Shown here in pieces: positions 46,207 to 51,403 of a stretch of DNA of 64,000 nt. A program made the translations under genes and the position numbers. Numbering within the stretch: position 1 is the first letter of the stretch; every line of letters begins with the position of its first letter. Origin of the DNA: Saccharothrix deserti (GTDB lineage: Bacteria > Actinomycetota > Actinomycetes > Mycobacteriales > Pseudonocardiaceae). The stretch covers positions 248,001 through 312,000 of the forward strand of contig NZ_VKAB01000002.1 of NCBI RefSeq assembly GCF_009769385.1, given 5' to 3'. The notes beneath the pieces are model-generated. The model did not search any database. It was not told the origin of the DNA and worked only from the letters and a program-made list of their open reading frames with translations.

Positions 46207-48111
46207 TCAGAGGAGGGTCAGTTGTTCCTGGACCACCGGGGCGGGTGGGGTTGTAGCGGGGAGGCTGCCTTCCGGCCACACGCCCTCGTCATCGCCCGGG
46301 ACGCCCACGGCGTCGCGTGTGCCGCGCGCGTCCAGGCCGTGTCGGGCCAGTAGCGGCGTGATGCGGGCGGTCAGCCACCGGCGGTAGCGGGCGTCCACAT
46401 AGGCCCCTCCGGCGTACAGCTTCCGGTAGCTGTCGACCAGGTCCGGCCGCTCACGCACCAGCCACCGGGCGAACCACTCGCGCGCGCCCGGCCGCAGGTG
46501 CAGCGGCAGGACGGTGACGCCGGTCGCGCCCGCCGCCGCGATCGACGCCAGCAGCGCGTCCAGCTGCTCCTCCGAGTCGGTCAACCTCGGCAGCACCGGC
46601 GCGACGAGCACCCCGCACGGCAACCCCGCGTCACGGATCCGGCGCACCAGCTCCAACCGCGCCTGCGGACTCGGCGTGCCCGGCTCCAAGCCCGATTGCA
46701 GGTCGCGGTCCAGCAGGGCCAGCGACACGCCGATGCCCACCGACACCGACGACGCGGCCTCCGCCAGCAGCGGGAGGTCCCGCGACAGCACGGTGCCCTT
46801 GGTGAGGATCGAGAACGGCGTGCCGGAGTCGGCCAGTGCCCGGATGATGCCCGGCATCAACGCGTACCGGCCCTCCGCCCGCTGGTACGGGTCGGTGTTC
46901 GTGCCCATCGCCACGTGCTCGCGCCGCCACTTCCGGGACCGGAGCTGAGCGGTCAGCACCTCCACCGCGTTGACCTTCACGACGACCTGGGTGTCGAAGT
47001 CGCGCCCGGCGTCCAGGTCGAGGTAGGTGTGCGTGTTGCGGGCGAAGCAGTTGTGGCTGACCAGACCGTTGGCCACGAAGTCGCCGGTCCCGGTGGTGAT
47101 GTCGTACAACGTCCGCGTCACGCCCAGCGACTCCACCGACACCACCGACAGCCGGGACGTCACGGGCACCTCCATGCCCTCCACCGCGTTGCCGCGCGGG
47201 ATCACCGGACCCGCCAGGTGCAGGAACCGCAGCCGCTCGGCCAGCCCGCCGACGATCCGCACCCCGCGCACCTCGACCACGTGCGACACGCGCAGCCGCG
47301 TCAACGCCAGCACCGCCGCCTCGAACACCGCGCTGTCCGAACTGGACATCACCAGCTGACCGCCGGTGGAGCTGCCGCGCGCGTCGAACAGGCCCGCCAG
47401 GAACCCCTTCGACCACTCCTCCCCCGGCGTCGTCGGCCACTCGACCAGTTCGCTCTCGCGCGGCACCCGACCGCCGGCGAACTCGCGCACCCGTGCCCGC
47501 ACATCCGGGTGGCTGGGCAGCCCGCCGCGCACCGCACCCCACAGGTAACCGGTGCGGTACTCGTCGTCGTGCGCGGGCGGCGCCGCGAACCGGCCCGTTC
47601 CGACCAGCTGCGTGCCCTTGACCAGGAACGGCCGCTCCTCGAAATCGTCGCACCGGCCGGGCGTGACGTGCTTCCAGCCCTCGTCGGTGAGGAACCGGTG
47701 GTCGCCGCCGGCCACCACCTGCGTGCCATCGCTCAACGTGAGCCGGTACGCGGGCTTGGACGTCTTCCAGTGCGCCTGCACACGCGTGACCACGAACCTC
47801 CCGTCCGAAGTGCCGAACACCTCCTCGCCGACGGACAACTCGGCGATGGGCTTGGTGCGGCCGTCGGCCAGCAGCACGGGGGTGTCGCCGGTCAGGCAGT
47901 ACGTGCAGCCGTGCGAGCAGCCACGATAGGGGTTGATCGTCCAGCCGAACGGCAGCCGGCCGCCCGGCACCTTGTTCAACACGGACTTGGCGTTCACTTC
48001 GTGGAACACGACATCGGCGAAGTCGGGGGTTCGTACGCTGCGAACCAGTCCCGGCAACCCCGGCAGAGCCTGCTGCCGGTCAGCCCCGTCCTTCTGCCCG
48101 TCCCATCGCAT
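46207..48111 (-). CDS. Rv2578c-family radical SAM protein interrupted by an intein
   Basis: 634 residues; 283 are intein (72-354), leaving a 351-residue host protein. The host has NPYRGCSHGCTYC, giving C65 and C69 of a CX3CX2C iron-sulfur motif. The third Cys of the working motif is the residue after the intein, C355 in CFARNTHTYLD, so only the spliced protein can bind the cluster. Further blocks HVAMGTNTDPYQRAEGRY and ILTKGTVLSRDLPLL are typical of the family (SplB-related, role unclear). ATG 48111 (MRWDG) is preferred. A LexA box lies 9 bases upstream. Confidence 0.9.
   Translation of the reverse strand: MRWDGQKDGADRQQALPGLPGLVRSVRTPDFADVVFHEVNAKSVLNKVPGGRLPFGWTINPYRGCSHGCTYCLTGDTPVLLADGRTKPIAELSVGEEVFGTSDGRFVVTRVQAHWKTSKPAYRLTLSDGTQVVAGGDHRFLTDEGWKHVTPGRCDDFEERPFLVKGTQLVGTGRFAAPPAHDDEYRTGYLWGAVRGGLPSHPDVRARVREFAGGRVPRESELVEWPTTPGEEWSKGFLAGLFDARGSSTGGQLVMSSSDSAVFEAAVLALTRLRVSHVVEVRGVRIVGGLAERLRFLHLAGPVIPRGNAVEGMEVPVTSRLSVVSVESLGVTRTLYDITTGTGDFVANGLVSHNCFARNTHTYLDLDAGRDFDTQVVVKVNAVEVLTAQLRSRKWRREHVAMGTNTDPYQRAEGRYALMPGIIRALADSGTPFSILTKGTVLSRDLPLLAEAASSVSVGIGVSLALLDRDLQSGLEPGTPSPQARLELVRRIRDAGLPCGVLVAPVLPRLTDSEEQLDALLASIAAAGATGVTVLPLHLRPGAREWFARWLVRERPDLVDSYRKLYAGGAYVDARYRRWLTARITPLLARHGLDARGTRDAVGVPGDDEGVWPEGSLPATTPPAPVVQEQLTLL
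47050..47898 (-). other. Intein with a decayed LAGLIDADG endonuclease domain
   Basis: Codons 72-354 of the radical SAM gene. Splicing block A is CLTGDTPVLLADGRT with nucleophile C72, block B contains GGDHRF, block F is LYDITTGTGDF and block G VANGLVSHN ends with His353-Asn354, followed by Cys355. All splice residues are present. In the endonuclease region FLAGLFDARGSS keeps the LAGLIDADG shape but has Arg at the catalytic acid position, and the first motif (GYLWGAVRGG) has no acid. Self-splicing should work; homing should not. Confidence 0.88.
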
Positions 48112-48119
48112 GCCCACAT

Positions 48120-48135
48120 TCGAACATGTGTTCGA
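48120..48135. promoter_or_regulatory. Perfect LexA (SOS) box between the radical SAM gene and pnuC-nadR
   Basis: TCGAACATGTGTTCGA has both half-sites of the actinobacterial SOS consensus TCGAAC-N4-GTTCGA. The divergent starts (48111 and 48158) are only 46 bases apart, so one site can control both directions. TACGGT (48138-48143), a TANNNT -10 element for pnuC, begins 2 bases after the box. Confidence 0.82.
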
Positions 48136-48157
48136 TCTACGGTCAAACGGAGTGCCC

Positions 48158-48814
48158 GTGTCAGTGCTGGACGTCATCCTGTGGCCCTTCAACACAACCG
48201 CCTTGACCTTCGCCGGGGCCACCACGAGCTGGGGCGAGGTGGCCGGGTTCATCACCGGCGCGCTGTGCGTGTGGCTGGTGGCCGGGCAGAACCCGTGGAA
48301 CTGGCCGATCGGCATCCTCAACAACCTCGCCTTCGTGGTGCTGTTCGCGACCAGCGGCCTGTACGCCGATTCCGGCCTGCAGGTCGTCTACATCGCGCTC
48401 GCGTTGTACGGCTGGTGGGCCTGGCTGCGGGGCGGCGCCGAACACTCCGCCCTGCCCGTCAGCCGGACCACCCGCGAGCAGTGGTGGTGGCTGCTCGGGG
48501 CCGGTGTGGCGGGCACCCTGCTGCTGGTGTGGGTGCTCACCTCGTTCAGCAACTCGACGGTGCCCTGGGCGGATTCCGTGACCACTGTCCTCTCGCTGCT
48601 GGCCACGTGGGGCCAGACCCGCAAGAAGGTCGAGTGCTGGTGGCTGTGGATCGCCGCGGACGTGATCTACGTTCCGTTGTACGCCTACAAGGGCCTGTGG
48701 CTGACCGCGATCCTCTACGTCGGCTTCATGGCCCTCTGCGTGCTGGGACTGCGCAACTGGACGAAGGCGCTGCGCGACGACGACCTGCGCGACGACCTGG
48801 CCGCCGTCGCGTGA
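48158..48814 (+). CDS. pnuC: PnuC-like nicotinamide riboside transporter
   Basis: 218 residues, seven hydrophobic helices. Signatures NPWNWPIGILNNLAFVVLF, YIALALYGWWAWLRGG and WLWIAADVIYVPLYAYKGLW match PnuC, which moves nicotinamide riboside into the cell by facilitated diffusion. The start is GTG 48158, 5 bases after GGAG; an in-frame GTG at 48152 overlaps that site and is less likely. The stop overlaps the nadR start by 4 bases (GTGA), so uptake and trapping of the riboside are coupled. Likely under LexA control. Confidence 0.9.
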   Translation: MSVLDVILWPFNTTALTFAGATTSWGEVAGFITGALCVWLVAGQNPWNWPIGILNNLAFVVLFATSGLYADSGLQVVYIALALYGWWAWLRGGAEHSALPVSRTTREQWWWLLGAGVAGTLLLVWVLTSFSNSTVPWADSVTTVLSLLATWGQTRKKVECWWLWIAADVIYVPLYAYKGLWLTAILYVGFMALCVLGLRNWTKALRDDDLRDDLAAVA

Positions 48815-49887
48815 CCGACTTCGACCACGCGTTGGTGCTCGGCAAGTTCTACCCGCCGCACGCCGGTCACCACCACCTCATCCGCACGGCCGCCGCGCGC
48901 AGCAGGCGGACCACGGTGACCGTGCTGGCGTCGAGCGTGGAGTCCATCCCGGTCGCGGACCGGGTGGCCTGGCTGCGCGCCGAACACGCGGACACGCCCG
49001 GTCTCGTCGTGCTCGGCGACGTGGACGACCACGAGATGGACTTCCACAGCGACACCGTGTGGGAGTCGCACATGGGCGTGGCACGGGCGGTGCTCGCGCG
49101 GCGCGCCATCCTGGACGGCGACCCGGCGTCGGCGGCGGTCGACGCGGTGTTCTCCAGCGAGCACTACGGCGACGAGATGGCCAAACGGCTGGGCGCCCGG
49201 CACGTCCTGGTCGACCTGGACCGCAGCGCGCACCCCGTGTCGGGTACCGCGGTCCGGGCCGACCCGCGAGGCCAGTGGGCGCACCTCGCGCCGGCGACCC
49301 GGGTGGGACTGTGCGCCCGGATCGTGGTGCTCGGGGCGGAGAGCAGCGGCACCACGACGTTGTCGCGTGACCTCGCGGCCGCGCTCGGCGCACCCTGGGT
49401 GCCCGAGTACGGCCGCGAGCACACCGAGCTGAAGCTGGCCGCCGCCCGCGCGTTCCACCCGGACGCCACCGTCGACAGTCTCGTGTGGACGGTCGGTGAC
49501 TTCCAGGACGTGGCGCGCAGGCAACGGGAACTCGCCGACGCGGCGGTGGACGGCCCGGTCCTGGTGTGCGACAACGACTCGTGGGCAGCGACCGTGTGGG
49601 GCCACCGGTACCTGGGCGCGCCGCACCCGGACATCGCGCCGGACGCCCACCGGCCCGCCCTGTACCTGCTCACCGATCACGTCGGCGTGCCGTTCGAGCA
49701 GGACGGGTGGCGGGACGGCGAGCACCTGCGCGCGTGGATGACGGCCGAGTTCCGGGCGGGACTGGCCGCGCGGGGCGTGCCGTGGCGGCTGGTCACGGGA
49801 CCGCCGGAGCAGCGGCTGCGGCAGGCCCTGGCGGCGTGCGAGGAGGCGGTGGCCCGGCACTTCCGGTTCGCCGACCCGCTGGGTTAG
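48811..49887 (+). CDS. nadR: NadR-like bifunctional NMN adenylyltransferase / nicotinamide riboside kinase
   Basis: 358 residues. N-terminal nucleotidyltransferase domain with GKFYPPHAGHHHLI (HxGH at 17-20) and SGTAVRADPRGQW. C-terminal kinase domain (about 170-350) with IVVLGAESSGTTTLSRDLA as P-loop, VPEYGREHTE and VLVCDNDSWA as the Asp-containing motif. The P-loop Lys is replaced by Thr181, a variant I believe recurs in actinobacterial NadR proteins. There is no N-terminal repressor domain. It phosphorylates the riboside brought in by PnuC and adenylates the product to NAD. Confidence 0.9.
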   Translation: MTDFDHALVLGKFYPPHAGHHHLIRTAAARSRRTTVTVLASSVESIPVADRVAWLRAEHADTPGLVVLGDVDDHEMDFHSDTVWESHMGVARAVLARRAILDGDPASAAVDAVFSSEHYGDEMAKRLGARHVLVDLDRSAHPVSGTAVRADPRGQWAHLAPATRVGLCARIVVLGAESSGTTTLSRDLAAALGAPWVPEYGREHTELKLAAARAFHPDATVDSLVWTVGDFQDVARRQRELADAAVDGPVLVCDNDSWAATVWGHRYLGAPHPDIAPDAHRPALYLLTDHVGVPFEQDGWRDGEHLRAWMTAEFRAGLAARGVPWRLVTGPPEQRLRQALAACEEAVARHFRFADPLG

Positions 49888-49948: not shown

Positions 49949-51403
49949 ATGTGCGCCGTGCACGCCAAGGACCTGATCGCCGCTCACGGCCACGGACACG
50001 GGCACGGCCCCGCCGAGCCCGCCTCCAAGCCGGTCCGCAAGCTGCTGCTGGTCCTGCTGCTGCCGTTCGTGCTGGCCACCGTCGTGGGCACGCTCCTGCT
50101 GTACCCGTTCGGGCACGAGCAGCGCACCGGCGCGGAGGTGGGGCTGGCGCAGGTGCCGGTGCGCGGCGACGTCACCGCCGTGGCCCAGGGCGGGTGCGGA
50201 CCGGACACGGACACACCCGACGCCACCGGGTGCTTCCTGGTGACCGTGCGGATGAGCGACGGCGCGGCGGCCGGGCAGGAGGTCCGCATCCCGGTGCCGG
50301 ACCAGCCGGGCACGCCGAAGTTCGCGGTCGGCGACGCGGTGGTGCTGTCCTACGGCGGCGGCAACCCGCGGGAGAGCACGTCGTACCAGCTGGCCGACTT
50401 CCAACGCGGGGTGCCGCTGCTGCTGCTCGCCGTGCTGTTCGCGGCGGCCGTGCTGCTGCTGGGGCGCTGGCAGGGGTTGGCGGCGCTCGGCGCGCTGGCG
50501 TTGAGCTTCGTGGTGCTGGCGCTGTTCGTGCTGCCCGCGATCCTGGCCGGGGAGAGCCCGCTGACCGTGGCCGTGGTCGGCGCGGGGCTGATCATGTTCA
50601 TCGTGCTGTACCTGACGCACGGGCTGTCCGCCCGGACGTCGACGGCGGTGCTGGGGACGTTGGTGAGCCTGGCGTTGATCGGCGTGCTGGGCGCGGTGTT
50701 CTCCGCGTTCGGCAAGCTGACCGGGCTCGACCAGGACACCGCGAACCTGGTGTCGCTGCTCGGGCACGGCATCGACACCCGCGGGCTGCTGCTCGCGGGC
50801 ACGATCATCGGCGCGCTGGGCGTGCTGGACGACGTGACCGTGACGCAGACCAGCGCGGTGTGGGAGCTGCGCCGGGCGAACCCGTCGCTCAACTTCCGCG
50901 AGCTGTACGCGGCGGGGTCGCGGATCGGCCGCGACCACCTGTCGTCCGTGGTGAACACGCTGGTCATGGCGTACGCGGGCGCGGCGCTGCCGTTGCTGCT
51001 GGCGTTCACGCTGTCCGGCCGGACCCTGGGCGAGATCGTCACCGCCCAGGACGTGGCGCAGGAGGTCGTGCGGACGCTGGTGGGCAGCATCGGCCTGGTG
51101 GCCGCCGTGCCGATCACCACCGCCCTGGCCGCGTTCGTGGCCGGCCGCGAACCCGTGCCCGCCTCCGACGCGTCCGACGCCGCCGAGCCGCCCCCCGAAT
51201 CGCCCGCTACCGCCTCTTCCCCCGCCACCTCGTCCTCCGCCGCCGCTTCCGACCCGACGTGGCGCAAGCGCGTGACCGGCGACCTGCGCACCGGCTACGA
51301 CCCGGCCAAGGGCCCGTGGCGGCGCCCGGCTAACGGGCCAGCAGGACCAGCGACAACGCGATCGCGGCGGGCACGGACTGCACGACCAGAATCCGACGAC
51401 TGA
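49949..51403 (+). CDS. YibE/F-family membrane protein
   Basis: 484 residues. A His/Gly-rich start (HGHGHGHG) could bind metal. One membrane helix (about 30-52), an extracytoplasmic beta domain (about 60-145) and seven further helices carry the YibE/F signature GTIIGALGVLDDVTVTQ and LSSVVNTLVMAYAGAALPLLL. The last 90 residues are a disordered Ser/Ala/Pro-rich and then Arg-rich tail. The function of the family is unknown. ATG 49949 is chosen; GTG 49961 is an alternative. The 3' end overlaps the convergent DUF1304 gene by 74 bases, within the disordered tail. Confidence 0.85.
   Translation: MCAVHAKDLIAAHGHGHGHGPAEPASKPVRKLLLVLLLPFVLATVVGTLLLYPFGHEQRTGAEVGLAQVPVRGDVTAVAQGGCGPDTDTPDATGCFLVTVRMSDGAAAGQEVRIPVPDQPGTPKFAVGDAVVLSYGGGNPRESTSYQLADFQRGVPLLLLAVLFAAAVLLLGRWQGLAALGALALSFVVLALFVLPAILAGESPLTVAVVGAGLIMFIVLYLTHGLSARTSTAVLGTLVSLALIGVLGAVFSAFGKLTGLDQDTANLVSLLGHGIDTRGLLLAGTIIGALGVLDDVTVTQTSAVWELRRANPSLNFRELYAAGSRIGRDHLSSVVNTLVMAYAGAALPLLLAFTLSGRTLGEIVTAQDVAQEVVRTLVGSIGLVAAVPITTALAAFVAGREPVPASDASDAAEPPPESPATASSPATSSSAAASDPTWRKRVTGDLRTGYDPAKGPWRRPANGPAGPATTRSRRARTARPESDD

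Follow-up and report, generated by a model that had tools for sequence, protein, structure and literature searches.

The DNA analyzed here is a 64,000-nucleotide stretch of the Saccharothrix deserti genome (contig NZ_VKAB01000002.1, positions 248,001 to 312,000), which we call the window. It contains a LexA-type SOS box between a radical S-adenosylmethionine (SAM) gene and the divergent nicotinamide adenine dinucleotide (NAD) salvage genes pnuC-nadR. A comparison with relatives makes it probable that the box serves the radical SAM gene as its LexA operator, that pnuC-nadR is transcribed from its own promoter embedded in that gene, and that the coupling of NAD salvage to the SOS response is secondary.

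The box, TCGAACATGTGTTCGA, occupies positions 48120-48135 without a strand of its own, and both of its 6-base arms are perfect. It lies inside the 46-base gap (48112-48157) between the ATG of the radical SAM gene at 48111 on the minus strand and the GTG of pnuC at 48158 on the plus strand; an in-frame GTG at 48152 is an alternative start. With up to three mismatches allowed the window contains three matches, two of which are the same box read on both strands. The mean in shuffled windows was 0.31 matches, and three were reached in 4 of 100 shuffles. The 10.8 Mb genome contains 19 perfect TCGAACNNNNGTTCGA sites; with at most one mismatch there are 148 sites per strand versus 21 for a reversed control pattern. 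The region upstream of lexA in the same genome carries a cluster of boxes, one of them perfect and two with one mismatch. A Pfam scan of ten proteins encoded beside 10 of the 19 perfect boxes identified LexA, a gyrB/parE-type protein, PriA, an AlkB-like 2OG-Fe(II) oxygenase and a DUF5131 protein; the remaining neighbours were a protein with an aminoacyl-tRNA editing domain, a lamin-tail-domain protein and three proteins with no match. The 16-bp palindrome TCGAAC-N4-GTTCGA hence occurs at the promoter in the window and also at lexA and at known SOS genes (gyrB/parE-type, priA, AlkB-like) of the same genome. The first-pass annotation had called a perfect LexA box in this divergent gap. The coordinates, the perfect arms, the mismatch counts and the genome-wide enrichment bear this out, and together with the conservation at radical SAM loci described below they confirm the element, as judged by its sequence, as a real LexA-type box. 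As a separate observation, the DUF5131 gene of this genome (PF07505, 160 bits; L001, open reading frame 106-534 on the minus strand) has a perfect SOS box 48 nt upstream (L001:583-598).

The distribution of the box was analyzed in 120 radical SAM loci. These are the loci that were fetched, a subset of the 390 genomes of the family with broken genes included; one locus (G147) gave no N-terminal match. The profile NF038135 matched in 100 of 120 sampled family genomes, in 93 of them above its cut-off. Of the 119 loci with an N-terminal match, 118 carry a box with no more than one mismatch in the 120 nt preceding the radical SAM start, in most cases at a distance of 7-12 nt, and this fixed place across relatives is what is expected of a member of the SOS regulon. 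The box is found at all 41 loci with a close pnuC and at 77 of the 78 others, the sole exception being G071. Where other DNA separates the two genes, the nearest box is at the radical SAM end (G027, G114, G065, G030, G008, G115, G276, G122).

The reciprocal analysis started from nadR. All 390 family genomes were searched, and 68 of them have a NadR match with E ≤1e-60. The box is no more than 30 nt from the pnuC start in 42 of the 68, namely in 18 genomes of Saccharothrix, 19 of Lentzea, 3 of Umezawaea, one of a further genus (G032) and one Actinokineospora (G100). The first-pass annotation had proposed conservation of the box in relatives with the same gene pair as a check; the box is perfect in all 41 NadR-bearing genomes of the first four genera (18/18, 19/19, 3/3 and 1/1), and its distance to pnuC is 16-30 nt in all of them (about 20 nt in Lentzea, read by eye from the line-up). 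Among the other 26 NadR genomes, 13 have their nearest box 88-5262 nt off, 10 have no box in the stretch that was read and 3 have no pnuC upstream; in three of those ten (G027, G065, G114) a longer stretch shows a box 1.2-4.8 kb off, beside the radical SAM gene. When pnuC-nadR is apart from the radical SAM gene, no box occurs in the 1.5-3.6 kb upstream that was read (G120, G240, G249, G057, G109, G277, G278). Outside the family, 37 NadR loci from Streptomyces, Nocardia and others, drawn from the best 80 of 282, were read over at most 1.6 kb upstream of nadR, and over less in three of them. The pnuC gene is upstream of nadR in 36 of these 37, and neither a box nor a radical SAM N-terminus was found within that distance in any of them. 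On its own, then, pnuC is accompanied by a box in none of the seven family genomes and in 0 of the 37 loci outside the family.

Because 118 of 119 radical SAM loci carry the box and separate pnuC-nadR pairs are boxless, we assign the box to the radical SAM gene; pnuC-nadR shares it in the close arrangement alone. The predicted primary role of the box is that of an operator for the radical SAM gene, a reminder that an operator in a divergent gap may control just one of its two neighbours. The claim of the first-pass annotation that the box is the operator of a pnuC promoter is not supported by these data, nor by the position of a conserved candidate promoter 80 bases upstream, which is described below. 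A NadR tree was built from 50 rows, 42 from the 68 family genomes and 8 from the 80 named loci (some being the same genomes); on it the tight arrangement of box and pnuC needs two changes, and this arrangement may have a single origin.

The radical SAM promoter is built around the box. Its -35 element, TTGACC, is at 48141-48146 and its -10 element, TCGAAT, at 48118-48123, both on the minus strand; the first four bases of the -10 element are the end of the box. TTGAC is present in 85 of the 118 boxed loci, with a spacer to the -10 element of 17 nt in 80 loci and 18 nt in 5, and 25 of the remaining 33 boxed loci read TTGC. The -10 element is TCGAAT in 61 and TCGACT in 41 of the 118. LexA on the box would cover the spacer and most of the -10 element of this TTGACC-N17-TCGAAT promoter, and the radical SAM mRNA is predicted to be leaderless, with its start at or near the ATG at 48111. 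Two loci, G075 (L037) and G098 (L036), have two adjacent SOS boxes at the radical SAM gene, one perfect and one with one mismatch.

The candidate pnuC promoter, GTTCG-TACGCT, is at 48029-48039 on the plus strand, with a -10 element of the TANNNT type at 48034-48039, within radical SAM codons 25-28. Codons S25-V26-R27 read AGC GTA CGA in all 41 NadR-bearing genomes of the four genera, which gives TCG-TACGCT in the direction of pnuC. The distance from this element to the box is 80-81 nt in 40 of the 41 genomes and 72 nt in G032. Other loci mostly use GTG and CGC; GTA CGA occurs in 5 of the 61 readable loci among the 78 others, and all five are Lentzea without pnuC or nadR in the locus. In these five (G286, G291, G283, G298 and G296; L298, L299, L300, L301 and L306) pnuC-nadR has been lost and a yibE/F gene, whose product is 66-73% identical to the YibE/F of the window, is now the first gene after that promoter and its leader, and the box is retained. 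The embedded element is found in none of the four Saccharothrix without a NadR match (G154, G155, G161, G173), which have GTG with CGC or CGG instead. In two of them, G155 (L205) and G154 (L207), the radical SAM gene has its box, and next to it pnuC and nadR are reduced to short fragments. Since these two lack GTA CGA, the element appears to have been lost when the operon decayed.

Codon usage singles out the same position. We call a codon fixed when it makes up at least 99% of at least 30 rows in the tight group. Among the degenerate codons compared, seven are fixed in this sense and below 80% elsewhere: R2, P17, P20, S25, V26, R27 and V35. At three of these (P20, V26 and R27) the fixed codon differs from the one most used elsewhere; V26-R27, with GTA and CGA, form the sole adjacent pair ending in A. 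The element is also intact in the decayed radical SAM gene of G032 (0 of 12 columns changed). In 6 of the 7 NadR-bearing Actinokineospora the hexamer TAGGCT occurs shortly before pnuC.

The sequence comparison shows a conserved operator and a conserved embedded element, and from these we infer LexA binding, the start points and any effect on pnuC expression. Transcription of pnuC-nadR, and probably of yibE/F too, would start from the TACGCT element in radical SAM codons 25-28. The predicted starts, at about 48111 on the minus strand and about 48047 on the plus strand, would face each other some 65 bases apart, and the box would lie about 75-90 bases into the transcribed pnuC leader. LexA could then act on pnuC only as a roadblock in the leader of undamaged cells; after damage, polymerases from the induced radical SAM promoter would cross the pnuC promoter in the opposite direction. 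With the pnuC promoter placed upstream of the box, SOS coupling of NAD salvage would be secondary. Relief of a roadblock and head-on interference are opposite in sign, so we assign no sign to an SOS effect on pnuC-nadR. True SOS control of NAD salvage is a minority prospect in our estimate, and we give about the same tentative weight to a fully SOS-wired salvage system in Saccharothrix, Umezawaea, Lentzea and the one further genus, in which facing promoters and a releasable LexA roadblock in the leader would let damage shift the choice of transcript.

Several observations weigh against a purely secondary role of the box for pnuC and against the embedded promoter. No -35 element was recognised for the latter, and a sigma-70 pattern scan of 47950-48250 found no promoter at all, that of the radical SAM gene included. 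In G100 the box is 30 nt before pnuC, there is no embedded element, and TAGGCT stands between the box and pnuC. The other observations come from genomes with broken radical SAM genes. In G032 the gene has decayed to 56% identity over residues 2-58 only, with broken frames and, by eye, a TetR-like gene soon after; its -35 and -10 elements read TCGAC and TCGAGC. The box arms in this genome are unchanged in all 12 columns versus 22 of 82 changed columns in the rest of the 5' region (one-sided Fisher p=0.032, a test that treats columns as independent, applies to the box alone and concerns one of the five broken genes inspected). The retention suggests that selection acts on the box through pnuC. 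G158 and G159 have lost the catalytic part and kept the box and the pnuC element (p=0.09 and 0.13, one shared event). As proof for pnuC this retention is weakened, because an intact radical SAM promoter precedes an in-frame orphan intein and because the two genomes are close (dS approximately 0.03-0.04 in pnuC and nadR). G168 and G169 also keep the box, after recent breaks that give little power (1 and 6 of 82 columns changed). With so few independent events of radical SAM loss, the evidence that the box matters to pnuC is suggestive, not decisive.

The orphan intein itself, apparent in G159 (L292:924-2015) and in G158 (L293, minus strand from 6169; the named relative is L217, Saccharothrix yanglingensis), consists of 47 N-extein codons without the CxxxC and an intact in-frame intein of about 283 aa. 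The catalytic C-extein is gone and a short tail, different between the two genomes, replaces it.

The retained box of G032 is the main support for the best of the alternatives, in which LexA bound in the pnuC leader blocks RNA polymerase, damage raises pnuC-nadR, and NAD salvage would be an SOS function in the four genera. The tight gap between box and pnuC in their 41 NadR-bearing genomes is consistent with this, and repressor roadblocks are described for LacI, PurR and GalR (PMC10310618). However, the closeness is not kept in the Kibdelosporangium group, most Actinokineospora, Actinophytocola and Labedaea, and most of the weight is on one genome. Moreover, a study of S. venezuelae reports that genes with intragenic LexA sites, except dnaE2, were unresponsive to damage (PMC9380542). 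We consider a damage-relieved roadblock possible, though somewhat unlikely.

It is more doubtful that SOS lowers pnuC-nadR by transcriptional interference, with the derepressed radical SAM promoter firing head-on across the embedded pnuC promoter. The inferred geometry of the facing starts at 48111 and 48047 would allow it, and in S. venezuelae the probable ortholog of the radical SAM gene is induced about 20-fold. It is similarly improbable in our view that the GTTCGTACGCT block, instead of being a promoter, binds another regulator of pnuC or is conserved for the sake of the radical SAM mRNA. A CGTACG palindrome within the block and the missing -35 upstream would fit; however, the block tracks pnuC or its successor in the operon and not the radical SAM gene, and the TAGGCT just before pnuC in 6 of 7 Actinokineospora is similar to the embedded element. 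The least likely reading is that of the first-pass annotation, in which a pnuC promoter overlaps the box, LexA occludes it and damage induces it: the TANNNT behind the box does exist as TACGGT (48138-48143, plus strand), but by eye in the 41 lined-up genomes it is limited to the window and three close relatives (G000, G157, G163, G165), overlaps the radical SAM -35 and is absent from the 37 others with the same pair, and it was rejected as the pnuC promoter on these grounds. The conserved GTCAA after the box was likewise rejected as belonging to pnuC, since it corresponds to the radical SAM -35 and is found also where no pnuC is near. Conserved promoter elements of pnuC therefore do not overlap the box.

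The gene calls of the first-pass annotation (an intein-bearing radical SAM gene, pnuC and nadR) agree with the profile matches, with a reservation for nadR. The radical SAM gene (46207-48111, minus strand) has 634 codons including the intein. Its product matches NF038136.1, the intein-containing Rv2578c family, with 817.8 bits (cut-off 700) and is thus a member; it also matches NF038135.1 (516 bits) and PF04055, and we take it to be COG1533/SplB-like. The intein (residues 72-354; 47050-47898, minus strand) matches TIGR01445 and TIGR01443, with PF14890 just below its cut-off, and interrupts the radical SAM CxxxCxxC motif immediately ahead of its third cysteine (GCSHGCTY / CFARN). In G016 (L113), G109 (L112) and G277, inserts of approximately 14-23 kb split the radical SAM gene around residues 70-87, close to the intein site; that of G277 (C8, 128603-144241) is known from the search table only. 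A gene for a large serine integrase with Resolvase and Recombinase domains adjoins the break in G016 and G109. The attB of phage Samy is reported in the same gene family (PMC12924846). Together with the integrase-bearing inserts, this raises the possibility that phages have repeatedly targeted this SOS-controlled gene.

On the other strand, GGAG at 48149-48152 is a probable ribosome-binding site of pnuC and is present in most rows of the line-up. The pnuC gene (48158-48814) encodes a nicotinamide riboside transporter (PF04973, 196.9 bits; TIGR01528) and overlaps the nadR-like gene (48811-49887) by 4 bases. The product of the latter, a nicotinamide mononucleotide (NMN) adenylyltransferase/ribosylnicotinamide kinase, matches AAA_28, and TIGR01526 with 140.7 bits versus a cut-off of 341.15. 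Because this score is below the cut-off and the similarity covers residues 6-330 only, we call the protein NadR-like and not NadR; no helix-turn-helix part was found in it, so that it is without a DNA-binding domain. The next gene on this strand encodes a YibE/F-like membrane protein (49949-51403; PF07907, 251 bits) and is probably in the same operon. Two further candidates for control in the pnuC leader were rejected. Rfam gave only two matches, at 48401-48526 and far under their gathering scores, and thus no known riboswitch; for an attenuator, folding was no better than in shuffles (z -0.76) and a pattern scan found no terminator.

A LexA-controlled radical SAM gene is already known in kind. 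Mycobacterium tuberculosis Rv2578c, which belongs to the same protein family by NF038135, presumably has an SOS box, with a divergent neighbour that is not pnuC. The intein form is also catalogued already: the window protein is a member of NF038136, and no difference from that family was seen. In S. venezuelae, the LexA motif is tCGAAC-N4-GNNCGa, and the targets listed in PMC9380542 include lexA, parE, alkB and the radical SAM gene vnz_31145, which rose 19.97-fold with mitomycin C in RNA sequencing. By its likely genome position next to SVEN_6313, a gene named in PMC12924846, vnz_31145 is probably orthologous to the radical SAM gene in the window. The two operators are alike in that the same 16-base palindrome overlaps the radical SAM promoter, and differ in that the vnz_31145 box is given at position -61 (PMC9380542). 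Unlike the S. venezuelae case, the radical SAM gene here appears to harbour the promoter of a second, oppositely oriented operon whose transcript would cross the box. The salvage operon resembles other pnuC-nadR operons without a NadR repressor domain, with a transporter and an NMN adenylyltransferase/kinase and with pnuC upstream of nadR; unlike those, it is back-to-back with an SOS gene, an arrangement seen only in this branch of the family. Among the publication titles in the matches listed, a set that consisted of titles only and had most subscription literature outside it, none dealt with SOS control of NAD salvage. A salvage-operon promoter that lies within an SOS gene, with transcription passing across the operator of that gene, would to our knowledge be new.

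If the preferred reading is true, in which the box is the operator of the radical SAM gene and pnuC-nadR has its own embedded promoter, the promoter of a metabolic salvage operon would be written into synonymous codons of an SOS gene. Bacterial DNA ligase consumes NAD. The locus lends itself to a direct test of whether LexA can act at a site beyond the point where transcription starts, and of whether DNA damage affects the NAD supply.

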